DNA of 64,000 nucleotides from Desulfatibacillum sp. Lineage in GTDB: Bacteria; Desulfobacterota; Desulfobacteria; Desulfobacterales; Desulfatibacillaceae. The translations under genes and the position numbers were made by a program. Shown here in pieces: positions 25,506 through 39,395 of this stretch (position 1 is its first letter; each line of letters opens with the position of its first letter). The stretch covers positions 1 to 64,000 of the forward strand of contig JAEINP010000015.1 of assembly GCA_016342355.1 (NCBI GenBank), in the 5' to 3' direction. The notes beneath the pieces were generated by a model. It saw only the letters and a program-made list of their open reading frames with translations, had not been told where the DNA came from and did no database searches.

Positions 25506-26717
25506 ATGTCCACCATCAGTATCTTTGCCGGCAACTATTGTCTGGCTGAGGACGTGGCCCGAAAGACGGCCCAGGACCTGAAATACACCTTTGTAAGCGA
25601 CCAGGAAATTTTTGAGAAAGCCGCTTCTCAGTTTAATACTCCGGCTTCCCGCTTTGCCCGGACAGTTCAAGGCAAGATTTCCGTGTTCAACGCTTTCACC
25701 CACGAGCAGGAAAGGACCCTGGCCTACTTAAAGGTTGTGGTCGCGGATTTTATCCGGGAGCAAGGGGTGGTTATTTTCGGAAAAACGCCAAAGCTCATTC
25801 CCTCCCACATTTCCCATGTCCTGACTGTGGGCCTCATGGGAGAATTGCCTTTCCGGACGCAAATTGCGACCAAATTGGAAAATGTCTCCCCGGCCCAAGC
25901 TGAAAAGCTGGTCCTGAAAGAGGAAGAAAGCCTGGTTAAATGGACAGAAAAGGTTGTGGGCGCAGCCCCCTGGATTCCAGACCAGTATGATATCTTTTTG
26001 CCCATGGATAAGAACTCTGTGGCTGCTGCTGCGGATCTCATTGTGAAAAACGCCAAAAAGCCTGTTTTGCTTCCGACCAGGGAGTCTTTGGCAGCCCTCA
26101 ATGATTTTATCCTGGCGGCCCATGTGGAAATTGCGCTGGTCAAGGAAGGGCATAATGCTGCCGTGGAGGTCCATGACAGCCACGCTGTTTTGACCATCAA
26201 CAAGCACTCCCTCATGCTTTCCAAGTTGGAAGAGGAACTCAAAGCCATTGCTTCCAGCCTTTCAGGAGTCAATTCTGTGGAAACCAAGGTCGGACCGGAT
26301 TTTTACAAGGCGGACATTTACAGAAAATACGATTTCGAAACCCCCTCCAAAGTCCTTTTGGTTGACGATGAACAGGAGTTTGTTCAAACCCTTTCTGACC
26401 GCCTGCTTATGCGGGACGTAGGATCGGCCGTGGTGTATGATGGACAACAGGCCCTGGATTTCATCAATGAGGATGAGCCCGAAGTTATGGTGCTGGACCT
26501 GAATATGCCCGGCATGGATGGCATGGAAGTCCTGCGCAAGGTCAAACTAAGCCATCCCGAGATCGAAGTCATCATTCTCACGGGCCATGGCAGCGAAAAG
26601 GACAAAACCCTGTGCATGGACCTGGGGGCGTTCGCTTATCTGGAAAAACCTGTGGACATCGAAGTTCTTTCCGAGAAAATGCGCGAGGCTTACCAGAAAG
26701 CCCGCACCGGGAAATAA
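25506..26717 (+). CDS. degenerate cytidylate-kinase-like / BON-like / receiver protein
   Basis: 403 residues. Residues 1-190 resemble the cytidylate-kinase-like family (ISIFAGNYCLAEDVARKTAQ, FVSDQEIFEKAASQF, REQGVVIFGK) but lack the P-loop GxxGxGK, so nucleotide kinase activity is doubtful. Residues about 215-270 look like a BON-type alpha/beta module (HNAAVEVHDSHAVLTINKHS, SLSGVNSVETKVGP). From about 280 a receiver domain follows (LLVDDEQEF, Asp331 in VLDLNMPGMDG, ILTGHG, LEKPVD). The receiver closely resembles that of the upstream SulP protein. It is 22 bases after sulP. It may be a sensory or adaptor protein of the relay. Confidence 0.78.
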   Translation: MSTISIFAGNYCLAEDVARKTAQDLKYTFVSDQEIFEKAASQFNTPASRFARTVQGKISVFNAFTHEQERTLAYLKVVVADFIREQGVVIFGKTPKLIPSHISHVLTVGLMGELPFRTQIATKLENVSPAQAEKLVLKEEESLVKWTEKVVGAAPWIPDQYDIFLPMDKNSVAAAADLIVKNAKKPVLLPTRESLAALNDFILAAHVEIALVKEGHNAAVEVHDSHAVLTINKHSLMLSKLEEELKAIASSLSGVNSVETKVGPDFYKADIYRKYDFETPSKVLLVDDEQEFVQTLSDRLLMRDVGSAVVYDGQQALDFINEDEPEVMVLDLNMPGMDGMEVLRKVKLSHPEIEVIILTGHGSEKDKTLCMDLGAFAYLEKPVDIEVLSEKMREAYQKARTGK

Positions 26718-26786
26718 TGCCGGTCTATCTGTCGGCTCAGACCTGAACCGGCGGATAGTCAACCTTGTGCGACTGGGATTTATTTC

Positions 26787-28502
26787 ATGCCTTTCAATCT
26801 GAGGATAACGCCCAAATTCTGGAGGCAGTTTGAAGTAGACTCCCCCCACCGCGGTTTTATCAATTACCGGCGTATGTGGTGGCAGTGCGTTATAGTCATG
26901 GCCAGCGTATGCCTCCTCCCCCTTATGATCACCACAGTCATCAATGCCTATCAATATCAAGAGGTTCTAAAGAGCGAAAATATTGCTCCTGCGGACAGAC
27001 TGGTTTCCAATACAGCCCGGTCCATTTCCTTTTTCCTGGAGGAACGGCGCAGCGCCCTGGATTTTGTGGTGCAGGAACGATCTTTGGAGGATCTGGCGGA
27101 CGGCAAGAACCTGGCGCGGCTTTTGTATCGCCTTAAACAGGTATTTGGCGGTTTTATAGATATCGGGGTCATTGATTCCTTGGGGGTCCAATTGTCTTAC
27201 GCTGGCCCTCTGGATCTGCAAGGAAAAAACTATTCCAGGCAATCCTGGTTTCATGAGGTCATGATCCGGGGCGTCTACATTTCTGACGTGTTTATGGGCT
27301 TCCGGGGATATCCCCATTTTGTCATAGCCCTGAAGCACGACCTGGAAGACGGAGACTATTATATCGTTAGAGCCACCATTGATACACAGGTATTCAACGA
27401 CCTTGCAAGGCCCTTAAACATCGGCCCCGCTTCGGATACTTTTGTGGTCAATGTCGAGGGGGTGCTTCAAACTCCGTCCAAGTTCTATGGCCCTGTGCTT
27501 CAAAAGGCCCAGTGGACCACAGATTCCGAATCCTTCCATACAACCGTGAAGGAACTGGTGGACCCGGCAGGTCGCAGCCTGATTATGGGCAGCCGCAAAA
27601 TTGACAACTCGCCCTTTATGTTTGTTTACGTTCATGAAACCAGGGGGATCCTGGCTGGCTGGTTTGCTTTGCGCAGCAAGCTCATAGGCTTTTTTGTCAT
27701 CAGTACGATCATAGTCATGCTGGTGATCCTGGGCGTCTGTACGTACCTGGTTTCTGCTGTGTTTGAAGCGGACAAAATCCGGGAGGCCGTACTCCATAAG
27801 GTGGAGTACACCAATAAGCTGGCTTCCCTGGGGCGCCTGGCTGCCGGAGTGGCCCATGAAATTAACAACCCCCTGGCCATCATCAATGAAAAGGCCGGGC
27901 TGCTGGAGGATTTGATACACCTGACCGAGGATTTCCCCCAAAAGACCAAGGCCCATGAAATCACCCAGTCCATATTGGGTTCCGTGGACCGTTGCAGCAC
28001 TATCACGCATCGTCTTTTGGGTTTTGCCCGGCATATAGACGTTAATTTCGAAACCATTTACCTGGACGCTTTGGTCAAAAATGTCTTGGGTTTCCTGGAT
28101 AAGGAATCCCATTACCGTGAAATCAAGGTGCATGTGGAGGTGGAAGAAAACCTTCCCGCCATTGAAAGCGACCGTGGCCAGCTCCAACAGGTTTTTCTCA
28201 ATATCCTGAACAATGCCTTTGCTGCTGTTGAAGACGGAGGGGAAATCAAGATAGGCATATACTCCATTAACGGGAATAAGGTAGCTGTCCGGATAGATGA
28301 TAACGGATGCGGCATGCCTCCAGAACACATGAAACTAATTTTCGAACCCTTTTTCTCCACAAAGGGCAGAAAGGGAACCGGACTTGGATTGTCCATTACC
28401 TATGGCATCATTAAAAAACTGAATGGATCCATAGAGGTAAACAGTCAGGAAGGAATTGGCACTACGTTCATCGTGACCCTGCCTGTAAAAAGACCTGCCT
28501 GA
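26787..28502 (+). CDS. membrane sensor histidine kinase with double-Cache-like periplasmic domain
   Basis: 571 residues. TM1 is at about 33-53 and TM2 at about 300-325. The periplasmic region between them resembles dCache (FFLEERRSALDFVVQER, GKNYSRQSWFHEVMIRGVYI, IALKHD), which usually binds small organic ligands. The kinase core has phosphoacceptor His357 in GVAHEINNPLAIINEKAGLL, N box FLNILNNAFAAVEDGG, DDNGCGMPPEHMKLIFEPFF and GTGLGLSITYGIIKK. It is the only complete kinase in the cluster and the probable phosphate source for its receivers. No receiver is fused. The spacing to sulP-linked genes suggests one operon. Confidence 0.93.
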   Translation: MPFNLRITPKFWRQFEVDSPHRGFINYRRMWWQCVIVMASVCLLPLMITTVINAYQYQEVLKSENIAPADRLVSNTARSISFFLEERRSALDFVVQERSLEDLADGKNLARLLYRLKQVFGGFIDIGVIDSLGVQLSYAGPLDLQGKNYSRQSWFHEVMIRGVYISDVFMGFRGYPHFVIALKHDLEDGDYYIVRATIDTQVFNDLARPLNIGPASDTFVVNVEGVLQTPSKFYGPVLQKAQWTTDSESFHTTVKELVDPAGRSLIMGSRKIDNSPFMFVYVHETRGILAGWFALRSKLIGFFVISTIIVMLVILGVCTYLVSAVFEADKIREAVLHKVEYTNKLASLGRLAAGVAHEINNPLAIINEKAGLLEDLIHLTEDFPQKTKAHEITQSILGSVDRCSTITHRLLGFARHIDVNFETIYLDALVKNVLGFLDKESHYREIKVHVEVEENLPAIESDRGQLQQVFLNILNNAFAAVEDGGEIKIGIYSINGNKVAVRIDDNGCGMPPEHMKLIFEPFFSTKGRKGTGLGLSITYGIIKKLNGSIEVNSQEGIGTTFIVTLPVKRPA

Positions 28503-28544
28503 TCTGCTAAAAAAACGGACGCGCCAGTCTGACAGGAGAAAATC

Positions 28545-28937
28545 ATGCGTATATTGCTGGTGGATGACGAATTTGAATTGGTTTCCGCCATGGCGGAACG
28601 GTTAAACATGCGTGGGCTGGAAGCGGACTATGCTACCTCCGGAAAGGCTGCCGTGGAAAAAGCCCGGCAATGCCAATATGATGTGCTTGTGGTGGACTTG
28701 AAAATGCCCGGCATGGACGGTATGGAAGTCATGAGACAGGTAAAGGAAAAATGCCCTGACACCGGCTTTGTCTTTTTGACTGGTTACGGTTCTGAAGATC
28801 AAAAATCCGCCAGTGAAGCGGCTGGAGCCACTTGCTACCTCATGAAACCGGTTAAAATCAGTGTGCTAATGGAAAAGATTGATGCAGCGGCCCAATCCGC
28901 CTGTACTATTCCAGGAAAGGATAACTCGGATGCCTGA
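28545..28937 (+). CDS. single-domain response regulator
   Basis: 130 residues with receiver landmarks LLVDDEFELV, Asp51 in VVDLKMPGMDG, FLTGYGSE and LMKPVKISVL. It resembles the receivers fused to the SulP and kinase-like proteins (shared RLNMRGL/RLKMRDF-type segment), which points to duplication within the cluster. The DHp-like gene starts inside its last codons (8-base overlap), so the two products are probably made together and interact. Confidence 0.93.
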   Translation: MRILLVDDEFELVSAMAERLNMRGLEADYATSGKAAVEKARQCQYDVLVVDLKMPGMDGMEVMRQVKEKCPDTGFVFLTGYGSEDQKSASEAAGATCYLMKPVKISVLMEKIDAAAQSACTIPGKDNSDA

Positions 28938-29580
28938 TTACTCTGACCGAGAAAGCGCCGTCCTGTTTGGTAAAGTCACGGCTAATGTCTCCCACGAAAT
29001 CAAGAATTCCCTTGCGATCATCAAGGAAATCGCCGGACTCCAGTCCGATCTCCTGGCCGCAGCCGAACGAGGCAGGCCCCTGGACCCCGCCCGGCTTGGA
29101 AGCCTGGCGGATCGTATAGGCAAACAGGTGGAAAAGGCCGATATCGTGGTCAAACGCATGAACCGCTTTGCCCATACTGTGGACTGCCTGAAAAAAACAG
29201 TGGACATGGGCGAAGAGATCGGCTTTATAATTGAACTGGTGGACCGCTTGTTCCAGATGCGGGGCATCCTTATCCATGCCCAGTTCCCATCGGAACCTGT
29301 TCTGGCGGAAACAGACCCCTTTCGACTGGTTGCGGCTGTGATCGCCTCTATGCAAGTGTTCCTGGACTGCCTGACCAAGGGAGACGAACTGAATATCCAG
29401 GTTTTATCAAGCAATAAAGGGGCCATGGTGGGATTCAAGACCCATGAGGACAACCTGGTTCTTCCCCCGGATTGCCAGGGCGACATTCGTTGCGCCCTGC
29501 AAGGATTGGGGGCCACTGTCCTCATTCCCGGGAAAGACCACTCCCTGGAATTGATCTTCCCGGGCCGGATGGCTATATAG
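28930..29580 (+). CDS. DHp-like phosphotransfer protein (histidine kinase without ATP-binding domain)
   Basis: 216 residues from the ATG at 28930, with AGGA 8 bases upstream, overlapping the preceding gene. It keeps a dimerisation/phosphoacceptor region, VTANVSHEIKNSLAIIKEIA with His22, and a long second helix (IGKQVEKADIVVKRMNRF). The C-terminal half keeps some HATPase-like topology but has no N, G1 or G2 box, so ATP binding is unlikely. This is the layout of Spo0B- and ChpT-type phosphotransferases that pass phosphate between receivers. A role linking the cluster's receivers is inferred. Confidence 0.78.
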   Translation: MPDYSDRESAVLFGKVTANVSHEIKNSLAIIKEIAGLQSDLLAAAERGRPLDPARLGSLADRIGKQVEKADIVVKRMNRFAHTVDCLKKTVDMGEEIGFIIELVDRLFQMRGILIHAQFPSEPVLAETDPFRLVAAVIASMQVFLDCLTKGDELNIQVLSSNKGAMVGFKTHEDNLVLPPDCQGDIRCALQGLGATVLIPGKDHSLELIFPGRMAI

Positions 29581-29610
29581 ATACAGATTTCATGATAAGG
29601 AGCGATTTCA

Positions 29611-30042
29611 ATGAATACAGGAAAAGTGCTGTTGGTGGATGACAATGAGGATTTTTTGGAAATTCTCTCCGAAAGAATCACTTCCAAAGGCTTGGCCGTG
29701 GAAACCGCCGAAAGCGGAACCGCCGCCCTGGCCAATCCTGAACTGGGTAAATACGATGCTGTTATTCTGGATCTTGTCATGCCTGAAATGGACGGCATAG
29801 AGACCCTCAAAAAGATGCTGGCAGCCAACCCGGAGCTTCAGATCATTCTCATGACTGGCCACGCATCCCTGGAAAAGGGCATTGAGGCCGTTAAATTGGG
29901 CGCCATGGATTTCCTGGAAAAACCAGCTGAAATTCAGTCGCTTATGAAAAAGATCCAGGAAGCCCAGGCAAAAAAAATGCTGCTTGTGGAAAAGAAAAAC
30001 GAGTCGAAAATCCGCGAGATAGTATTCACAAAAGGCTGGTAA
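29611..30042 (+). CDS. single-domain response regulator
   Basis: 143 residues, with AAGGAG before the ATG. The receiver has LLVDDNEDFLEIL, Asp54 in VILDLVMPEMDG, ILMTGHAS and FLEKPAEI. A basic, helical tail of about 20 residues (KKIQEAQAKKMLLVEKKNES) has no recognisable DNA-binding fold. It is the last gene of the SulP cluster, followed by a strong hairpin, so it may be the terminal receiver of the relay. Confidence 0.92.
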   Translation: MNTGKVLLVDDNEDFLEILSERITSKGLAVETAESGTAALANPELGKYDAVILDLVMPEMDGIETLKKMLAANPELQIILMTGHASLEKGIEAVKLGAMDFLEKPAEIQSLMKKIQEAQAKKMLLVEKKNESKIREIVFTKGW

Positions 30043-30058
30043 TCCTATTGCCATTTTA

Positions 30059-30098
30059 GGCATCCTGCCCTGCCATTCCGCAGGCAGGGCAGGATGCC
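30059..30098 (+). terminator. strong hairpin ending the SulP cluster
   Basis: A 16-bp perfect inverted repeat (GGCATCCTGCCCTGCC at 30059-30074 and its complement at 30083-30098) with an 8-base loop lies 17 bases after the last stop. Only a weak T-rich tail follows, so termination may be partial or rho-assisted. Confidence 0.6.
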
Positions 30099-30215
30099 TG
30101 CTTGATTACCCTCTCTGCTTTTTTGGGTTCCGGTTGAGTGCAGCTTTGCCTGCCCTCCAGACTTTTCGTCTCAGACTCCCCACAATATGCCCGCTTCCCT
30201 CCCAACCGAATAACC

Positions 30216-30245
30216 TTGACACATTAAATGGCCTTACCCTATAAA
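30216..30245 (+). promoter_or_regulatory. sigma-70 promoter of the cobalamin-riboswitch transcript
   Basis: TTGACA at 30216-30221 and TATAAA at 30240-30245 are separated by 18 bases. The start would be near 30252, about 10 bases before the riboswitch aptamer. Confidence 0.75.
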
Positions 30246-30261
30246 GACTCCATATAGGGCG

Positions 30262-30415
30262 ACAGGCGCCTGTTTGGGTGTAAAAGGGAAGCCGGTGCAA
30301 ATCCGGTACGGTCCCGCCGCTGTGATCGGGGACGAAAGCCGCAAAATCCACTGTTCCTCCGGGAATGGGAAGGGGCGGTCAGTAGGAAGATCCGAAAGTC
30401 AGAAAACCTGCCTGT
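30262..30415 (+). promoter_or_regulatory. cobalamin (B12) riboswitch aptamer
   Basis: The closing helix P1 is ACAGGC (30262-30267) with GCCTGT (30410-30415). Conserved blocks are present: AAGGGAAGCCGGTGCAAATC, GGTCCCGCCGCTGTGATCGG, CCACTG near 30349, and the B12 box AGTCAGAAAACCTGCC (30397-30412). A terminator at 30507 forms the expression platform. The aptamer binds adenosyl- or other cobalamin and is expected to shut off the downstream receptor gene when cobalamin is plentiful. Confidence 0.96.
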
Positions 30416-30506
30416 AGCCCGGGGAGTCTTTTGCTCGACGCGAGATCGACGGCAGCGCATCAAACGCCATGACAGCCCCAGGGAGATGAAGAAGACGGGT
30501 GCAATC

Positions 30507-30538
30507 CCCCAGCCATTTGATATGGTTGGGGTTTTTTT
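30507..30538 (+). terminator. riboswitch-controlled intrinsic terminator
   Basis: CCCCAGCCAT (30507-30516), loop TTGAT and ATGGTTGGGG (30522-30531) form a 10-bp stem with one G-T pair, followed by seven T. It lies between the aptamer and the receptor start at 30559, so cobalamin would favour termination. Confidence 0.88.
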
Positions 30539-30558
30539 ATTTTAGGAGCCTATTTTTT

Positions 30559-32658
30559 ATGACAAACACAAAACAATCGCCTTTCCGACAAGGAGTATTT
30601 CAATCCTTTTCTCCTTGCCTCTTGACGATCATATTCCTTTTGATGTTAGCCTCCTTAGCTCTCGCTCAGACTGCGGTTTCTGAAGAAAGCCAAGCCCCTG
30701 AGCCTCCCCTGGATTCCCAGTACGTTCTGGACGACATGGTGGTTACTGCTCAACAATTGCCGGACGCCTATCGCACAGGAGACGTGGACCATGCCACCAC
30801 CCCGGCTTTTTTCACGGTCATTCCCAGGGATGCCTTTGTCGGAAAAATGGAAAACCTGGCTCAGGTTTTACAAAATGAGGCCGGGGTTCAGGTGCGCCAA
30901 TCCGGGGGACTTGGCAGTTTTTCCACGGTGTCCCTCCGAGGCTCTTCCAGCGACCAGGTCATGATTTATATGGATGGCATCCTGCTGAATGACGCCTCAG
31001 GCGGCGGCGTGGATCTTTCCAACATCAGCCTGGCCGACGTCTCCTCTGTCAACATATACAGAGGCGTCACTCCGGCCAGTTTTGGCAAAGCGGGTATAGG
31101 CGGGGTGGTAAACATCAAAACCCTCCGTGCTCAAAAAGGAACCAAATACAGTGTGGGCGCTGGCTACGGCTCTTTTGACACTAAAAAGGCTTTTGGGTTT
31201 GTCAACCATAAACCCGGGAAAACCGACTTCCTGCTGTCCGCCGACTATTTAGGCAGCAAAAATGATTTCGAATTTAAAAACGATCAGGGCACAAGCTGGA
31301 ACAAGCAGGACGACCAAGTGGAAAAACGGCGCAATGCGGATTTTTACCAAAGCAACGTGCTGGCCAAGGCGGGTTGGGATGCCAACCCCGACCTCCGGTT
31401 TGACTTGGTCAATCAGTATTTTTTCAAAGATCAAAACCTGCCCAACTGGATCAACCTGGACACCGCCTCTACCAACCTGACCACATCCCGCAATATTACC
31501 ACCCTGCGCATGGGCCTGGACAACCTCACATCCCTGGGCCTGAATACAGTGGCCAGCATCAGCCACAGCCTCAAGGAAGAAAAATACAATGACATGGAAG
31601 GTTCCGTGGGCCTGGGCAAACAACTGAACAAATACACAACCCGGCGGTGGACCGGCGATATCTACACCGAATGGGTTACAGATTACAACATTCTTGCCGC
31701 CAAGGTGGAGTATCAACAGGAAAACTACGAACCCAAGGATCTTCTCCAGTCTGATAATCCCCATGACAGCAATCGCCACTACGTGGTGTCCACACTCCAG
31801 GACAATGTGGTCCTCTTGTCGCAACGTTTGGTCATTTCTCCGGCAGTCCGGTATGTCTGGCTTTCCGACGAGTTGGAATCAGGCGCCTCGGTTTGGGGGG
31901 CGGACCTGGAAAAAAGCGAACGCAAGGATGAATACTGGATGCCCCAATGCGGCGTCAAAATCAAGCCATGGTCCTGGTTTACACTCAAGAGCAATATCGC
32001 CCAATATGTGCGTGAACCTTCCTTTTTCGAACTTTTCGGGGACCGGGGCTTTTTTGTAGGCAACGAAGAACTTAAAGCGGAAAACGGCACGAATTTTGAC
32101 GTGGGTTTTGAAATCAATCACTACACCCAGTGGCTGTTGATCAACCGGATATCCTTTTCCGGAGCCTATTTTAAAAATGATGTGGAAGATTTGATTACCA
32201 GAGTTTATGACTCCCGGGGGGTGGGAAAATCGGTCAATATTTCCGAATCCGAAATCACGGGGATGGAAAGCCAGGCCGCCGTGGATCTCCTCCGCCTGTT
32301 CACCCTGTCGGGCAATATCACATGGCAGGACCCGGTTAATAAAAGCGAAATTTCCGCCTTTAATGGCAAGCGCCTGCCCGGGCGTTACGAATGGGCCACA
32401 ACCGGCAAGTGCGAATTCCATTACCGAGGCTTTAAGATCTATGGGGAATACCTCTACGAAGCAGGCACTTTTTACGACACAGCCAACCTGGTTGAGGCCA
32501 GGGAGAAAAGAGAGTTGAACGCCGGTGCAGCTTACATGTTCAAAGGCTTTTCTGTGGAGTTGGAGGGCAAAAACCTCCGGGACAAGAAATATGAAGATTT
32601 CAATGGCTACCCATTGCCAGGCACGGCCTACTATTTGACCGTTAAATTTGAAAGCTGA
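30559..32658 (+). CDS. btuB: TonB-dependent outer-membrane receptor, BtuB-like
   Basis: 699 residues from the ATG at 30559, with TTAGGAG upstream. A longer frame from 30499 would run through the terminator hairpin. The signal peptide is PCLLTIIFLLMLASLALAQ. A TonB-box-like DDMVVTA precedes the plug domain (LAQVLQNEAGVQVRQSGGLG, SLRGSSSDQVMIYMDGILLN, YRGVTPASFGKAGIGGVVNI). The remaining ~500 residues form a 22-strand-type barrel ending in an aromatic-rich strand (YYLTVKFES). Control by a cobalamin riboswitch indicates uptake of cobalamin or a corrinoid. ABC-transporter genes (btuCDF) are not in the window. The next gene encodes a secreted beta-propeller. Confidence 0.92.
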   Translation: MTNTKQSPFRQGVFQSFSPCLLTIIFLLMLASLALAQTAVSEESQAPEPPLDSQYVLDDMVVTAQQLPDAYRTGDVDHATTPAFFTVIPRDAFVGKMENLAQVLQNEAGVQVRQSGGLGSFSTVSLRGSSSDQVMIYMDGILLNDASGGGVDLSNISLADVSSVNIYRGVTPASFGKAGIGGVVNIKTLRAQKGTKYSVGAGYGSFDTKKAFGFVNHKPGKTDFLLSADYLGSKNDFEFKNDQGTSWNKQDDQVEKRRNADFYQSNVLAKAGWDANPDLRFDLVNQYFFKDQNLPNWINLDTASTNLTTSRNITTLRMGLDNLTSLGLNTVASISHSLKEEKYNDMEGSVGLGKQLNKYTTRRWTGDIYTEWVTDYNILAAKVEYQQENYEPKDLLQSDNPHDSNRHYVVSTLQDNVVLLSQRLVISPAVRYVWLSDELESGASVWGADLEKSERKDEYWMPQCGVKIKPWSWFTLKSNIAQYVREPSFFELFGDRGFFVGNEELKAENGTNFDVGFEINHYTQWLLINRISFSGAYFKNDVEDLITRVYDSRGVGKSVNISESEITGMESQAAVDLLRLFTLSGNITWQDPVNKSEISAFNGKRLPGRYEWATTGKCEFHYRGFKIYGEYLYEAGTFYDTANLVEAREKRELNAGAAYMFKGFSVELEGKNLRDKKYEDFNGYPLPGTAYYLTVKFES

Positions 32659-32736
32659 TTTTGAATAGATACCAAGGAGCGGCGTCCCAGTCGAAACTCC
32701 TCAAAAGAGTTTTATATAGAGGGACGGGAGGAAACA

Positions 32737-34401
32737 ATGACCCAAAGACCTTTTAGAATCCTTAACTCGCTATTCCTGGCCTGCCTCCTATTGCTATGGA
32801 CCGGCCAAGCATATGCCGCCGGTCAAAAGGCGGCCGTCCAGACCACGGCTTCGGATTGGTCCAGCGCAGCCCACGCCGTGATTGACGTCAATCCCACCCT
32901 GGGAGGCCGGCAAGCGGAACTGGATCTTTTTCCCTCCAATACATCCGACTGGATTGTCCGTTCCTACGGGCAATATTTTTATCTCATAGGCAGGTATTAC
33001 GCTGACAGCCTGACCAAATTCTCCGTAGATGCCCCGGAAACGCCTATCTACCAGGTTTCCATACTGCCTGATGGTTTGGCCAGCGGCAACCCCCATGACA
33101 TGATTTTCGCCAACGCGGGTAAAGCATACATTCCCATGTATGAAACCGATAAATGCTGGATCGTCAACCCTCAGAACGGGCAAAAAATCGGGGAGATTGA
33201 CCTCTCGGTCTATAATGACGGGGATGGTATTCCCGAAATGCATACAGGTGTCATCGCGGACGGCAAGCTGTTCCTGCTCCTTCAGCGCCTGGACAGGGAT
33301 AACGGCTGGAACCCCGTTGGCACATCCTATGTGGCAGTCATTGACACAACCACGGACCTGGAAGTGGACACCAACGGTGATCCCGGCACTCCCGACGGTA
33401 TTGTTCTTAATGTCACCAACCCAAATTGTATCCAGTATCTGCCCGAAAACCATACCCTTTACATTACCGCCACAGGCAAGTATCCCGGCTCTGATGCAGC
33501 CAATCCCTATCTTTATACAGGTGGCATCTTAACCTTGGACCCGGATACTTACATAGTGACCAAGCTCATTGATGACGGGCCGGATGGACCAAGCGGGAAT
33601 CACCCTTATGGAGCTTTTTCAGGCATGACGGTGATAAGCCCTGATAAGGGCTACTTAATCGGGTACATGGGGTGGGAAAATAATAAAGTCTTTCCTTTCC
33701 ACCCCACCACAGGTGCAGTGGGAGACGTGATTTCCAGCCTGGAAGGCAAGTCTCTGGTGAGCAACGAATCGGGCGCCAGTGTAGATGAAAACGGCTTGGT
33801 GTGGCTGGCTGTCGGTGGCTCGGATCATGCGGTGTTTATCATTGATCCTGCCACCGATTCGGTTCAGGATAAAGTAGACACAAACCTGAACCCCGGCAGT
33901 ATTGCCTTATGCCCTCCAACCATCTGGGCAGGCAGTAACCAGGTCAATGCAGCCACAGGCACAGGCGCCTTGGCGGTTTCCAACGATATAGGGACAATTG
34001 CGGCCATTAACTCCTTTAAAAGCAGCGCCTACCCCAACGCTGGCAACAAACCCGATTTGCCTTTTGTGGATGGCCTGATTGGCGTGAAGGTGGACGGCAT
34101 TGTTGCGGGTTCCGATGTGGAGTTGACCATTACCTTTCCCACTCCCCGGCAGTCTGACGCCGTGTATTACAAAATGGATGCAGCGGGCGATTATTACGTT
34201 TTTCCCTTGTCCAGGATTACTGAGGTAGACAACAACACCATTGTCCTGACGCTAACCGATGGAGGCGCAGGTGATAGGGACGGCGTTGCGAACGGTTCTA
34301 TTGACGATCCGGGAGGATATGCCATGACTGCCCCGGAGGATCCCGGATCCACTTCAGGCGATGACGGGGATAGCGGTTGTTTCATCAAGTCTTTGTTATA
34401 G
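32737..34401 (+). CDS. secreted YncE/BtuG-like beta-propeller protein with choice-of-anchor U domain
   Basis: 554 residues. The signal peptide (LFLACLLLLWTGQAYA) is followed by repeating beta-propeller blades, e.g. FANAGKAYIPMYETDKCWIV, GTSYVAVIDTTTDLEVD, YLPENHTLYITATG and DENGLVWLAVGGSDHAVFII. Residues about 445-535 match the choice-of-anchor U type domain (LIGVKVDGIVAGSDVELTIT, VYYKMDAAGDYYVFP, LTDGGAGDRDGVANGSIDDP). The end is a Gly/Asp/Ser linker and GCFIKSLL, resembling C-terminal sorting tails with an invariant Cys. It follows btuB by 78 bases under the same riboswitch. By analogy with Bacteroides BtuG it may capture cobalamin at the surface (inference). Confidence 0.78.
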   Translation: MTQRPFRILNSLFLACLLLLWTGQAYAAGQKAAVQTTASDWSSAAHAVIDVNPTLGGRQAELDLFPSNTSDWIVRSYGQYFYLIGRYYADSLTKFSVDAPETPIYQVSILPDGLASGNPHDMIFANAGKAYIPMYETDKCWIVNPQNGQKIGEIDLSVYNDGDGIPEMHTGVIADGKLFLLLQRLDRDNGWNPVGTSYVAVIDTTTDLEVDTNGDPGTPDGIVLNVTNPNCIQYLPENHTLYITATGKYPGSDAANPYLYTGGILTLDPDTYIVTKLIDDGPDGPSGNHPYGAFSGMTVISPDKGYLIGYMGWENNKVFPFHPTTGAVGDVISSLEGKSLVSNESGASVDENGLVWLAVGGSDHAVFIIDPATDSVQDKVDTNLNPGSIALCPPTIWAGSNQVNAATGTGALAVSNDIGTIAAINSFKSSAYPNAGNKPDLPFVDGLIGVKVDGIVAGSDVELTITFPTPRQSDAVYYKMDAAGDYYVFPLSRITEVDNNTIVLTLTDGGAGDRDGVANGSIDDPGGYAMTAPEDPGSTSGDDGDSGCFIKSLL

Positions 34402-34414
34402 TTCATTATTAAGT

Positions 34415-34437
34415 GGGCTGGCTTGCATGGCCAGCCC
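34415..34437 (+). terminator. hairpin after the beta-propeller gene
   Basis: GGGCTGGC (34415-34422) pairs with GCCAGCCC (34430-34437) across a 7-base loop. It is followed by CCTTTGAGATTATTT, a poor T-tract. It lies between convergent genes. Confidence 0.5.
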
Positions 34438-34465
34438 CCTTTGAGATTATTTGGACGGCCTTGAT

Positions 34466-35038
34466 TCAAGCAATGCGGGAAAGACGGGTATTGGCAGCGT
34501 CAATATCAAATAGTCCCGGATCAAAGTCCTGGCCTACCCACTGGACCATGACCGCATGAGCCGGATGCCTTTCATCCCTCAGTGCTTCCAAAAAATCAAT
34601 ATAGCGAAAAATTCCGCCAATGTTTTCGGGGGGGCAGGCCCTTTCTCCGTCAACACAAACAGGATTGCGTAAATTTTTTTCCAAGGGAGAGATTTCCTCC
34701 ACCAGAATTTCATGGCGCCAATTGTCTCCCGGATCATACTCGTAAATAAAGCGCTTTCCCAAGTTTGGCGCCACATGGGAAAGGCGGACTTCTTGTTCGC
34801 TGAGCAATCCAAAATCGTGGTCGGGGGTTGGAATGCCGTAACTCCTGCCTCCTATGGAAAAGCGGTGCTGGTGGGTTCCTGACCACCCCATGACGGCCAG
34901 GATGATCTGGTGCATCTTGCCGAGGGTTGTGTCGCTGGTCACCACAATGCGCCGCCATATGGCAGGGTCCGACCCCATGAGGGTAATGCGCAAACAATAA
35001 AGGCGACGAAGGTCGGTAACTTTTTTTCCAGAGAACAT
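34466..35038 (-). CDS. plasmid pRiA4b ORF-3 family protein
   Basis: 190 residues with the hallmarks of the pRiA4b ORF-3-like family: LRITLMGSDPAIWRRIVV, TLGKMHQIILAVMGWSGTHQ, HRFSIGGRSYGIP, FIYEYDPGDNWRHEILVEEI and CVDGERACPPENIGG. The family occurs on plasmids, in IS1096-type elements and on chromosomes. No enzymatic role has been shown. No transposase is adjacent here. It stands alone on the minus strand between the B12 operon and a PAS kinase gene. Confidence 0.9.
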   Translation of the reverse strand: MFSGKKVTDLRRLYCLRITLMGSDPAIWRRIVVTSDTTLGKMHQIILAVMGWSGTHQHRFSIGGRSYGIPTPDHDFGLLSEQEVRLSHVAPNLGKRFIYEYDPGDNWRHEILVEEISPLEKNLRNPVCVDGERACPPENIGGIFRYIDFLEALRDERHPAHAVMVQWVGQDFDPGLFDIDAANTRLSRIA

Positions 35039-35248: not shown

Positions 35249-36937
35249 TTGCAAGATAAAATTATGACGGTCCCCCCGGAAATCGATATAATATTAGAGA
35301 CCGGCTATATTGGCCGCATTCTAAAGGAAACCCATTCCCTGGCCCTGCAGGAACGTATAGTCCGGTGCATTCGCGTGTTTCAGTCCTTGGAAGCAATAGG
35401 CGCTATGGCCATCCCATATGTGGCGGCATGGAAGGAATCCGACGGTAAAATCTGGTACGAATATGCTTCCCAACGTTTTTGTGAACTTATGGGATGCAGC
35501 CCGGGGGAATTGGCCGGAGTGTTTTCCGATAGCATTATTGATCGAAGGCTTTATGGGGCCAATTTTCAAAGCCAGACAATAAGCCGCCTGGAGCTTGTGG
35601 GCTCCAGAAACCGCATACGGGAAGAAGGAAAACAAACCGGGGCCACGGAATCGGTCTTTAAAGTCTCCCCTCCGAACAGGGATATTATTTGGCTTAAAGA
35701 TCAGGCCGTTATAGAGTTTTTTTCGGAAGACTCCGTCTGTATCTCCATTGGATCCCTGGTGGAAGTAACCAAGGAAATGGAGGCGGAAGAAAAACGCAAG
35801 CAAGCCGAGGCCGCCCTGGCGGACAGCGAAAAAAAGTATCGCCAAACTTTTGAAAACACCCCTATTCTGATTGTTTTAACAGACCCGTCAGGCGTTATTA
35901 TCGACTGCAACCCCAAAATTGCGCCTTACTTCGGGTACACCCCCGAAGATGTGCGCGGGCGCCTCCTTGGGGATATGATTCATGAGAGCTGCAAGGCCAG
36001 AATCCAAAATGCCATCAGACAAACCCAAGAGCAGGGACAAATGTCCGGGGTTGAACTCCTTTTTCTAAAGCGGGATGGCAGATTCCTTGACGCTAATGTC
36101 AATTTCTCGGCCCTTACCGATGAATTCGGGCAAACATCCGGACTGGTCTGCGGCATTGAAGATGTAACCCATAAAAAGCAGATGGAAGAAGAACTTGTTA
36201 GAACTCGCAAACTGGACGCCACAGGCATACTTGCAGGGGGAATAGCCCATGATTTTAACAATCTGCTAACGGTGATCATCGGAAACATGGAGCTGGCCCA
36301 GCTTAGCGGCGTCATAGACGGAGCCTCCAGACAGGCCCTGATCGCAGCCAAAGAGGCTGCAGTCAGAGCATTTCGTCTAACCAACAAATTCATCACCTTT
36401 TCCCAGGGTGGGTCCCCGGTAAGAAGGGAAGCCTCCCTTAAAAGCCTTCTTGAGGACGCCATTATGGAATCCACCCAGGATGCCATGAGTTTCGCCTTGC
36501 TGGGTTCCCGTCTGGAATGCCAGCGCAATTACCCTCAAGACCTTTGGTGTGCCAGAGTGGATGAAGCACAGGTGAGGCAGGTCTTTGTCAATATTCTTAC
36601 CAACGCAAAGGAATCCATGCCTAATGGTGGTGTGATTTCGGTAAAGGCGGAAAATGTGCATATTACCGGGCAGGGCGCAGAATATGAGATTTCCCTGCCC
36701 CAAGGGCGGTATGTAAAAATTGAAATTTCAGACCAGGGCTCCGGTATTCATCCCGAGGATTTTGAAAAAATCTTCGACCCGTATTTTTCCACCAAAGACC
36801 GGGGAGCCCAAAAAGGCATGGGGTTAGGGCTATCCATTGCCTATTCCGTAATCAAAAAACACGGCGGCTTTATCGCAGCCAAACCTCGATCTGTTGGCGG
36901 CGCCAGCGTGATTGTTTACCTGCCAGCCTCTGATTAA
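35249..36937 (+). CDS. soluble PAS-domain sensor histidine kinase
   Basis: 562 residues if started at the TTG at 35249 (GCAGGG 8 bases upstream); an ATG at 35264 is an alternative. No membrane segments. A first PAS-like region spans about 55-185 (CSPGELAGVF...). A second, clearer PAS is at about 200-310 (FENTPILIVLTDPSGVIIDC, GLVCGIEDVTHKKQMEEE). The kinase has phosphoacceptor ILAGGIAHDFNNLLTVIIGN, N box FVNILTNAKESMPNGG, DQGSGIHPEDFEKIFDPYFS and GMGLGLSIAYSVIKKHGG. A receiver often fused in this kinase group is absent. A CCCTGC-TTCTG-GCAGGG hairpin overlaps the putative ribosome binding site. It converges with another PAS kinase gene 13 bases away. Confidence 0.9.
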   Translation: MQDKIMTVPPEIDIILETGYIGRILKETHSLALQERIVRCIRVFQSLEAIGAMAIPYVAAWKESDGKIWYEYASQRFCELMGCSPGELAGVFSDSIIDRRLYGANFQSQTISRLELVGSRNRIREEGKQTGATESVFKVSPPNRDIIWLKDQAVIEFFSEDSVCISIGSLVEVTKEMEAEEKRKQAEAALADSEKKYRQTFENTPILIVLTDPSGVIIDCNPKIAPYFGYTPEDVRGRLLGDMIHESCKARIQNAIRQTQEQGQMSGVELLFLKRDGRFLDANVNFSALTDEFGQTSGLVCGIEDVTHKKQMEEELVRTRKLDATGILAGGIAHDFNNLLTVIIGNMELAQLSGVIDGASRQALIAAKEAAVRAFRLTNKFITFSQGGSPVRREASLKSLLEDAIMESTQDAMSFALLGSRLECQRNYPQDLWCARVDEAQVRQVFVNILTNAKESMPNGGVISVKAENVHITGQGAEYEISLPQGRYVKIEISDQGSGIHPEDFEKIFDPYFSTKDRGAQKGMGLGLSIAYSVIKKHGGFIAAKPRSVGGASVIVYLPASD

Positions 36938-36950
36938 GTGGTTGCGGCAG

Positions 36951-39395
36951 CTATCCGCCTTTTCTGTTTCCGGGTATGAGTATACGATGACGATTCACCG
37001 AGCCTCCCTTAATTGGCAGGGTTATGGTAAATACCGCCCCACCGTCCGGATCATTTTCCGCCGTAATGGAACCCTTATGCTCCTCCACAATACCCAGGCA
37101 AATGGATAGGCCCACTCCCATACCCATTTTCTTTTTTCTGGTGTAAAAGGGATCAAACACGTTGTTAAGATCTTCGTTTGAAATCCCCGGCCCCGTGTCC
37201 CGTACCTGCATGGCCAAATGCTCCCCGGCTTTATAGGTCTTTACTATGATGCTTCCTTTGGGGCCGGTTTCTTCCTCTCCATGGACTGAGGAGATGGCTT
37301 CCACCGCGTTGTTTACAAGATTCAGCACCACTTGGCTCATTTGTTGGGGGGAAGCCATGATTTCAGGCAGTTCCCGGTCCAGGTTCAGGGTTACAATGAC
37401 CCGGTTCTTCTTGAAAAAACTGTTTCCCAAGCCAACGGTCATTTCAATAATATGATTGATATTTGTTTTCTGGCGTACTTCCTTTCCTGGCCTGTTAAGG
37501 TCCAAAAGGTTTTTGACCGTATCCCTGATATTCAGAAAAGCTCCCCTTAGCAGGTCAATTTGGCTGCAAAGGTCGGGGTCTTCCCCGTAAGTGCGTTTTA
37601 GCGTACCCAGCATCATTGTGATGGCCTGCAAAGGCGAGTTTATCTCGTGAGCCACGGAGGCCGCAAGCTGGCCTGTTGCCGCAAGCCTTTCCGAACGGAT
37701 CAACTGGCTTTCCAGTTCCTTGGTGGCCGTAATATCCCTGAAACTCCAAACCCGGCTTATGTTGCTTTCATCCTTTGAAAGAGGACTGGAATACTCTTCA
37801 ATAAGACGGCCATCCTTCAATTCCAAGGTGGCGAAATTGACTTGCAAGATCTGGCGTGTATTGAATGTAGCGTCATTAAAGGCTATGGGATCTTCCATCT
37901 GAACCGCCATGTAACCTAAAATTCTTTCATAGTCCCGGGTGGCCATGAGGGATAAGGGAACGCCAAAAAGATCCCTGAAAAGCCCATTATAGTGTGTCAC
38001 CCTGCCATTTTCATCCACAACCAAAATCCCGTCGGCGGTGGCCTCCACAGTAGCGCGGAGCAGTTTTTCGTGCTCCACCAGGGCTTCTTCCCCCCGTTTG
38101 CGTTCCTCAATTTCATCTCGCAGGTGGATGTTGGCGGCCAGTAACTCACTAGTGCGGTTGGCCACTTCTCGTTCCAAAGCGTCATGGGCTTGCCTTAAAG
38201 CCTCTTCAGCGCTTTTTCGTTCGGTGATATCACTCAGAAAGAATAGATGGGCAGGACCGGATTCCCAATTGATTTTCACACCACTTTGCTCAACCCACTT
38301 TTCATTTCCATCGCGTGTGAAAAGCCGGAAAGACTGCACCGAGGATTTTTTGCCTCCCTCCAGCAGCAGTTGTTGTTTTTCCATGACTGCTTTTCGATCA
38401 TCAGGATGGATATGCGAATCAAACGCCCAGGTTCCAAATTCCTCCCTGGAATACCCAAACAACTCCGAGACCTTGTTGTTCCAAAACAAAGGATAACCGC
38501 CTTGCACCACGACCATGGCCTCGTTGGCGTTTTCCACCACCTCGCGATATCGCAATTCGCTTTCACGCAGGGCCTGCTCCGTAAGTTTTAACGAGGTAAT
38601 GTCTTCCACAGTTCCCACATAGCCAATGAACTGTCCATCATGGTCCAGCATGCGGGCCGCACTGATGCTGATCCAACGCAAAGCACGCCGGTGTGTCCAG
38701 ATTTGGGTTTCGTGGGAGAATTCCTCTCCACCCAAAATAGCCTGAAGCCATCCCTCCAGCGTGGAAGTGGCTTCGTCTGGGGGGGGCAGTGACTTATCCC
38801 CGGGCTTCCAGTCCCATTCGCTTTTTAATTCAAAAATATTCTTTAGTGCAGGATTCATGTAAGTGGTCCGGCCATGTTCGTTGACCAGGAAGATGCCAAT
38901 AGGTGCGGACTGGGACAGGCGCCGGAACCGCTCTTCGCTAACCCGCAGTTCCCGGGCTACACTTTTATGATGGGAAATTTCTTTTCTGAGCAGCCGGAGG
39001 GTCTTTTCCAGTTGTGCTGTTTTTCCTAACAACTCCGTGGACCTGAGTTGCATTTTGGATTCCAGTTCCGCAAGGTGCCTGGCTTCCAAATCCCTGGCAA
39101 CTATCAGGGCATCCAAGAGTTGATTAAAGGAGCCCGCTATCACCTGCCACGATTTGGGGCCATCGCCCGGTATCAAGCGGAGGGTTAGATCCCCTTTGAC
39201 CAGGTGTTGGAGCCCTTTGTTTAACTTTCCCGAGAGTAATTGGTGTTTATAACGCAGGTATAGAGAGGAAAGAACAATAATGGAGATAAGGACTAAACTT
39301 AAGACAAGGGAAGACCCCTCCAGGGTCATGACGGTAATGATAGCCAGACAAATGGACTGGATCACCAGGACAGTTGTAAGAAGCCTGACATCCAC
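36951..39395 (-). CDS. membrane-anchored multi-PAS sensor histidine kinase
   Basis: 814 residues. Two hydrophobic segments at the N-terminus (about 5-25 and 28-48) are followed by a HAMP-like linker (LLSGKLNKGLQHLVKGDLTL) and a coiled coil. Three PAS domains follow: RLSQSAPIGIFLVNEHGRTT, EVVENANEAMVVVQGGYPLF and LRATVEATADGILVVDENGR. The kinase domain has SVAHEINSPLQAITMMLGTL (phosphoacceptor His), VVLNLVNNAVEAISSV, RDTGPGISNEDLNNVFDPFY and GMGVGLSICLGIVEEHKG. With almost no periplasmic loop, sensing is probably cytoplasmic through the PAS pockets. No dedicated response regulator is adjacent. Confidence 0.92.
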   Translation of the reverse strand: MDVRLLTTVLVIQSICLAIITVMTLEGSSLVLSLVLISIIVLSSLYLRYKHQLLSGKLNKGLQHLVKGDLTLRLIPGDGPKSWQVIAGSFNQLLDALIVARDLEARHLAELESKMQLRSTELLGKTAQLEKTLRLLRKEISHHKSVARELRVSEERFRRLSQSAPIGIFLVNEHGRTTYMNPALKNIFELKSEWDWKPGDKSLPPPDEATSTLEGWLQAILGGEEFSHETQIWTHRRALRWISISAARMLDHDGQFIGYVGTVEDITSLKLTEQALRESELRYREVVENANEAMVVVQGGYPLFWNNKVSELFGYSREEFGTWAFDSHIHPDDRKAVMEKQQLLLEGGKKSSVQSFRLFTRDGNEKWVEQSGVKINWESGPAHLFFLSDITERKSAEEALRQAHDALEREVANRTSELLAANIHLRDEIEERKRGEEALVEHEKLLRATVEATADGILVVDENGRVTHYNGLFRDLFGVPLSLMATRDYERILGYMAVQMEDPIAFNDATFNTRQILQVNFATLELKDGRLIEEYSSPLSKDESNISRVWSFRDITATKELESQLIRSERLAATGQLAASVAHEINSPLQAITMMLGTLKRTYGEDPDLCSQIDLLRGAFLNIRDTVKNLLDLNRPGKEVRQKTNINHIIEMTVGLGNSFFKKNRVIVTLNLDRELPEIMASPQQMSQVVLNLVNNAVEAISSVHGEEETGPKGSIIVKTYKAGEHLAMQVRDTGPGISNEDLNNVFDPFYTRKKKMGMGVGLSICLGIVEEHKGSITAENDPDGGAVFTITLPIKGGSVNRHRILIPGNRKGG

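Follow-up and report, generated by a model that had tools for sequence, protein, structure and literature searches.

The locus analysed here raises the question of whether a bacterium outside the Bacteroidetes captures corrinoids at its surface by means of a beta-propeller of the BtuG type. According to published work, BtuG occurs exclusively in Bacteroidetes (PMC6143338, 2018), and other organisms with BtuB lack it (PMC12751083, 2025); we found no report on BtuG homologues outside Bacteroidetes in the open-access literature. The locus lies in a 64,000-nt stretch of Desulfatibacillum sp. DNA (GenBank assembly GCA_016342355.1, contig JAEINP010000015.1, positions 1 to 64,000), which we refer to as the window. 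A preliminary description had proposed that positions 30262-34401 contain a riboswitch, a BtuB-like receptor and a secreted beta-propeller protein with a choice-of-anchor U domain and a Cys-containing tail; all of these elements were found, and the proposed coordinates were correct to ~15 nt (Table 1).

Table 1. Features of the riboswitch-controlled locus in the window and the basis for their assignment
Feature	Coordinates	Strand	Basis
Cobalamin riboswitch aptamer (RF00174)	30247..30429	+	Rfam cmscan, 113.2 bits, E 1.4e-27
Intrinsic terminator: hairpin (30507-30531) and T run	30507..30541	+	CCCCAGCCATTTGATATGGTTGGGG then TTTTTTT, 10 pairs
BtuB-like TonB-dependent receptor, 699 aa	30559..32658	+	PF07715, PF00593, PDB matches
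Putative TonB-box-like motif DDMVVTA in receptor	30730..30750	+	Sequence reading, by resemblance
BtuG-like propeller protein, predicted to be secreted, 554 aa	32737..34401	+	ORF, structure, synteny
Signal peptide, residues 1-28, without convincing lipobox	32737..32820	+	Sequence
Beta-propeller domain, residues 29-395	32821..33921	+	AlphaFold, Foldseek
Choice-of-anchor U domain, residues 438-529	34048..34323	+	NF041766, 94.9 bits, cut-off 32
CFI-box C-terminal cysteine tail, residues 542-553, ...DSGCFIKSLL-stop	34360..34395	+	NF041763, 17.7 bits, cut-off 15.9
Convergent gene at downstream border of the unit	34466-35038	-	PF07929

The score of the aptamer clears the RF00174 gathering score of 31.5 bits. 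The best terminator-like site across the region 30040-34800 is the hairpin between the aptamer and the receptor gene, and this terminator likely forms the expression platform of the riboswitch. The receptor and propeller genes are separated by just 78 nt, and the same scan detected no terminator-like site in this gap; therefore, the two genes are likely co-transcribed. Because the convergent PF07929 gene closes the unit downstream, the unit appears to be an operon of two genes. Genes for histidine kinases and response regulators directly precede the riboswitch operon (25506-30042), and further kinases are encoded downstream of it (35249-39395).

Translation of the receptor gene more likely starts at the ATG at 30559 than at the listed GTG at 30499, because AGGAG stands just upstream. 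The receptor comprises a TonB-dependent Plug domain (PF07715) and a barrel (PF00593), and its best matches in the PDB are Bacteroides thetaiotaomicron BtuB1 (E 2.3e-17) followed by E. coli BtuB (E 1.3e-16); BtuB3 and BtuB2 likewise outrank every heme receptor. It is the genome's sole strong match of its kind, the two other matches being weak. With 144 bits, the receptor misses the cut-off of the BtuB equivalog TIGR01779 (599.7), and we therefore refer to it as BtuB-like and not as a BtuB equivalog. Similarly, the NCBIfam models for hemin and B12 receptors score about equally, both far below their cut-offs, and the names that they offer are thus not decisive. A heme or siderophore receptor, as the NCBIfam ranking would have it, was rejected since the PDB matches, the riboswitch and the btu neighbours point to BtuB.

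The signal peptide of the propeller protein was judged by eye to be of type I; its Cys16 is located within the hydrophobic core and is not present in a 75% identical orthologue. Pfam and NCBIfam did not provide a usable name for the propeller: DUF5074 is matched just at its cut-off and in only three of 52 family members, the matches to YVTN-like domains are weak, and neither library supplied a name for three homologues. The family has the signature YxDxDGxPEM, the Glu of which (E167) is kept in 51 of the 52 alignment rows.

An AlphaFold model based on 10 sequences already had BtuG as its top structural match; as this model was merely moderate (pLDDT 71), we built a second one of the propeller alone from 52 sequences (mean pLDDT 93.0, pTM 0.92). 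When this model was compared with the PDB using Foldseek, ranks 1-16 were all occupied by BtuG1/2/3 chains (E 4e-14 to 4e-11), and the first match that is not a BtuG was AztD (E 1.7e-10). In VIA-align, the BtuG entries had Z scores of 30.2-32.5 (2.6-3.0 Å, ~310 residues; the top score at 2.8 Å) and the generic YVTN propeller 1l0q had a Z score of 30.5; since rows that are at most one Z unit apart count as tied, 1l0q overlaps with the lower BtuG rows. The remaining non-BtuG entries reached at most 28.9, including the siderophore-binding XusB (26.9), YncE (26.1) and the B12-binding BtuK1 (25.0). In total, the predicted structure classifies the domain as a BtuG-type beta-propeller with BtuG as its closest fold.

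At the level of sequence, the propeller protein is about 15% identical to BtuG, and phmmer with this single protein found no chain in the PDB. Using hhalign with the 52-member propeller profile as query, we obtained a score of 49.8 against BtuG2 (sequence as given by the PDB letters; E 6.6e-6, 202 columns, probability 85%) and of 29.4 against the control E. coli YncE (E 0.0059, 55 columns, probability 6%). A profile of blades 2-3 searched against 177,635 PDB sequences returned nine BtuG2/3 chains first (the 9 best of 12), with E about 0.01-0.02. In the whole-domain hmmsearch 1l0q outscored BtuG, and with a 10-sequence profile designed Pizza propellers dominated and BtuG was not among the matches listed. 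The residues named around the ligand cavity of BtuG2 are Trp194, Tyr239, Trp272 and Tyr316 (PMC10404256). Trp194 aligns with W191, a position that is aromatic in 47 of the 52 rows (W 31, F 11, Y 5), and Tyr239 with Y249, which is aromatic in 36 (Y 27, F 9); no conserved aromatic residue of the 52-row family alignment matched Trp272 or Tyr316. Moreover, E167 aligns with BtuG2 Glu180. These comparisons lean to BtuG over YncE and are suggestive, not conclusive by themselves.

We then asked how the propeller gene is placed in other genomes. In a search of relatives covering 59 genomes including the window's own, the propeller proper was present in 11 besides the window's own. A gene for a BtuB-like receptor adjoins it in 10 of these 11; in the remaining genome (G044, locus L059), the contig ends inside the propeller gene. 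A cobalamin riboswitch is located upstream, in the same orientation, in nine of the 10, and in the tenth (L052) the contig begins within the receptor gene. In Desulfatibacillum alkenivorans, the closest named relative, the gene order is identical and the propeller protein is 75% identical.

A scan of GTDB contigs yielded 74 loci; because it used just two peptide patterns, both from the propeller, the neighbouring genes could not bias it. Riboswitches were detected with a sequence-only model made from 13 riboswitches of this analysis, part of which came from these very loci; the loci that this model missed were searched with Rfam. A TonB receptor gene is adjacent in 59 of 64 testable loci and absent in five with enough DNA, 10 of the 74 being untestable; a cobalamin riboswitch is present at most 6 kb upstream in 51 of 57 testable loci and absent in six with enough DNA, with 17 of the 74 untestable. 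Given that the window's genome has four cobalamin riboswitches in 5.26 Mb, linkage by chance is excluded. Some operons run on into btuF-btuC-btuD (L074, L070 and L117) and others, such as L110, into a gene that fuses BtuF to the adenosylcobinamide salvage enzyme CbiZ. In L064, there is an additional cobalamin riboswitch in the gap between btuB and the propeller gene. The hosts are mainly Desulfobacterota; more distant ones include Gammaproteobacteria, Bdellovibrionales, Spirochaetes, Latescibacterota, Gemmatimonadota, Nitrospirae and Leptospiraceae, among others. As most host genomes are MAGs, lone outliers, e.g. a Thermoplasmata contig, may be misbinned. Two Desulfobacterota genomes (L109 and L111) encode divergent CFI-tailed propeller paralogues without an adjoining BtuB-like receptor or cobalamin riboswitch, and these may bind something else.

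We estimate a probability of about three in four that the locus encodes a riboswitch-controlled, BtuB-BtuG-like lid for the capture of corrinoids at the cell surface in which the anchor is swapped. When cobalamin is scarce, the riboswitch would permit read-through of the terminator into the two-gene operon. The receptor would function as a BtuB-type TonB-dependent corrinoid transporter, and the propeller protein, exported by Sec, would act like BtuG, i.e. it would be exposed at the surface of the cell, above the receptor and in complex with it, bind corrinoids tightly on one face and pass them to the receptor. From there, the corrinoid would proceed to BtuF-BtuC-BtuD, the genes for which stand at another site of the genome behind a second cobalamin riboswitch. 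The C-terminal choice-of-anchor U domain together with the CFI-box cysteine tail, and not an N-terminal lipid, would hold the protein at the surface.

Several observations count against this capture lid. Identity to BtuG is low and the single-sequence search found no BtuG; 1l0q nearly ties with BtuG in Z score and beats it in the sequence profile; and two of the four cavity aromatics are unmatched. Propellers are promiscuous, as XusB illustrates by having a TonB receptor partner and a Z score close to 27. The surface location of the window protein, which has no lipobox, is a prediction and, finally, the genome, which encodes CbiC, appears capable of making B12, so that it need not scavenge the vitamin. 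Since an N-terminal lipoprotein signal was tested for and is absent, and sequence homology is suggestive, we do not class the window protein as BtuG proper. Of the analogous capture system that the preliminary description had envisaged in a Desulfobacterota organism, a BtuG-like locus is thus present; by contrast, the system occurs in several phyla rather than being peculiar to this organism, and it is not a strict BtuG system, the protein having neither lipobox nor LES and being about 15% identical to BtuG. The two comparisons which that description had proposed both came out in its favour: the structure search placed BtuG first, with a best Z score of 32.5 against 26.1 for YncE, and the synteny counts excluded that the homologues lie consistently away from B12 genes.

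The location of the protein bears on the alternative that fares best, namely that the propeller binds corrinoids but is freely secreted or periplasmic and serves as a scavenger or storage protein and not as a surface lid on the receptor. This would fit a window protein that has no lipobox and whose short CFI tail lacks a transmembrane helix, as well as homologues with neither lipobox nor CFI tail, which form a minority (e.g. L066 and L076). Against it, the homologues from Gammaproteobacteria, Bdellovibrionales and Spirochaetes begin with a lipobox signal peptide; the gammaproteobacterial ones are predicted lipoproteins, and where complete they stop just past the propeller and have no CFI tail. 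In most of the complete homologues from Desulfobacterota, a lipobox is missing and the C-terminus carries a CFI motif, either as a short stub as in the window protein or with a hydrophobic helix and basic residues behind it, and the latter form, found in many of them, resembles known sorting tags. Given also that the pairing of propeller and receptor is near-constant, we regard a free or periplasmic protein as unlikely, at perhaps a fifth of the total weight. A clade comprising L079, L085, L090, L093 and L108 (together with L083 and L092, which are cut by contig ends), some of them labelled Candidatus Tharpella, has an N-terminal extension starting with DYAYYFPYF and lacks both the lipobox and the CFI tail.

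Among the homologues compared, none had both a lipobox and a CFI tail, and in a maximum-likelihood tree the lipobox and CFI labels are explained by one change (support 84/83). The window's genome encodes nine proteins with a CFI-box tail above the NF041763 cut-off, several of which have a choice-of-anchor U domain; hence, the tail is probably a genome-wide sorting signal and not a quirk of one gene. We found no studies on the CFI box in the open-access literature. Proteins with the MYXO-CTERM tag are believed to be lipidated on the cysteine and delivered to the surface through myxosortase and type II secretion (PMC11980579). A C-terminal tag with an invariant cysteine is common to both cases, and some of the homologues also have the Cys motif, hydrophobic helix and basic end; by contrast, the motif here is CFI, and the window tail ends a few residues past the Cys without a helix. 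A broader proposal, which we hold tentatively and at somewhat less than even odds, is that BtuG-like lids are an old multi-phylum lineage and not an invention of Bacteroidetes, and that in Desulfobacterota the CFI cysteine, joined to the outer membrane by a lipid or in some other way, replaces the N-terminal lipid anchor and is functionally equal to the lipobox. The swap of lipobox and CFI tail on one protein would offer a direct way to study the CFI-box sorting signal.

Alternatively, the propeller might bind another ligand, such as, in the manner of XusB, a siderophore or metal complex, or might cap or assemble the receptor, and be merely co-regulated with B12 uptake. XusB, a propeller with a TonB-receptor partner, is indeed among the PDB matches, and in E. 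coli yncE adjoins pqqU, so that pairing of propeller and receptor is not specific to B12. XusB, however, ranks below BtuG in both structure comparisons, and the riboswitch counts, the btuFCD and CbiZ neighbours and the extra riboswitch in L064 also count against it; we therefore consider this alternative improbable. That the protein is a generic YVTN/YncE propeller without a role in B12 metabolism, its neighbourhood reflecting chance or hitch-hiking, would accord with the weak domain matches and the strong structural match to 1l0q, and is highly improbable given a linkage that holds over dozens of species in several phyla and the clearly weaker match to YncE in both structure and profile.

In the window's genome, the riboswitch-preceded btuF, btuD and btuC (G000:C7:61255-66800; L014:3256-8778) complete the corrinoid path of the proposed capture lid to the cytoplasm. 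Directly after btuC, and possibly in one operon with it, lies a gene for a 798-aa secreted choice-of-anchor U protein without Pfam match, whose only feature in common with the propeller protein is the anchor domain. CbiC, an enzyme of de novo corrin-ring synthesis, is encoded as well, and the genome appears able to make B12 itself; for this reason, corrinoid uptake probably spares synthesis and does not substitute for it. At G000:C61:1486-3097 (L015), a cobalamin riboswitch extends into the 5' end of a gene of the ThiC family. This gene matches, in addition, the B12 lower-ligand protein BzaB below the respective cut-off and, although it passes the ThiC cut-offs, possibly encodes an anaerobic benzimidazole synthase. 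A fourth cobalamin riboswitch (G000:C33:91534-91702; L004, L016) has no obvious B12 gene directly downstream.

Comparison with known systems places the locus closest to the Bacteroides pair. The receptor resembles E. coli BtuB and B. thetaiotaomicron BtuB1-3, its nearest solved relatives, in having Plug and barrel, and differs from E. coli BtuB in falling below the equivalog cut-off. E. coli BtuB functions without a BtuG lid. The E. coli K-12 YncE/PqqU system (L135) is similar in that the propeller gene yncE adjoins pqqU, the gene for the TonB-dependent PQQ receptor; by contrast, the match to YncE is weaker and the ligand context differs. The XusB-XusA xenosiderophore system (PMC13142918) likewise pairs a TonB receptor with a propeller, which is located on the surface; the ligand of XusB, however, is a ferric siderophore, and its structure scores below BtuG against the window model. 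With BtuG1, BtuG2 and BtuG3 of B. thetaiotaomicron (PMC6143338, PMC10404256), the window protein shares the propeller fold, for which they are the best structural match, the placement of its gene next to that of a BtuB-type receptor behind a cobalamin riboswitch, in many cases together with btuFCD, and, in part, the cavity aromatics. It differs in that the N-terminal lipobox and LES of BtuG are replaced by the C-terminal choice-of-anchor U domain and CFI tail, in the low identity, in a host outside Bacteroidota and in that corrinoid binding is predicted here. If the propellers bind corrinoids, lid-assisted capture of B12 would be widespread in anaerobic sediments and Gammaproteobacteria and not a gut adaptation. 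Altogether, the present data argue against BtuG-type lids being limited to Bacteroidetes.
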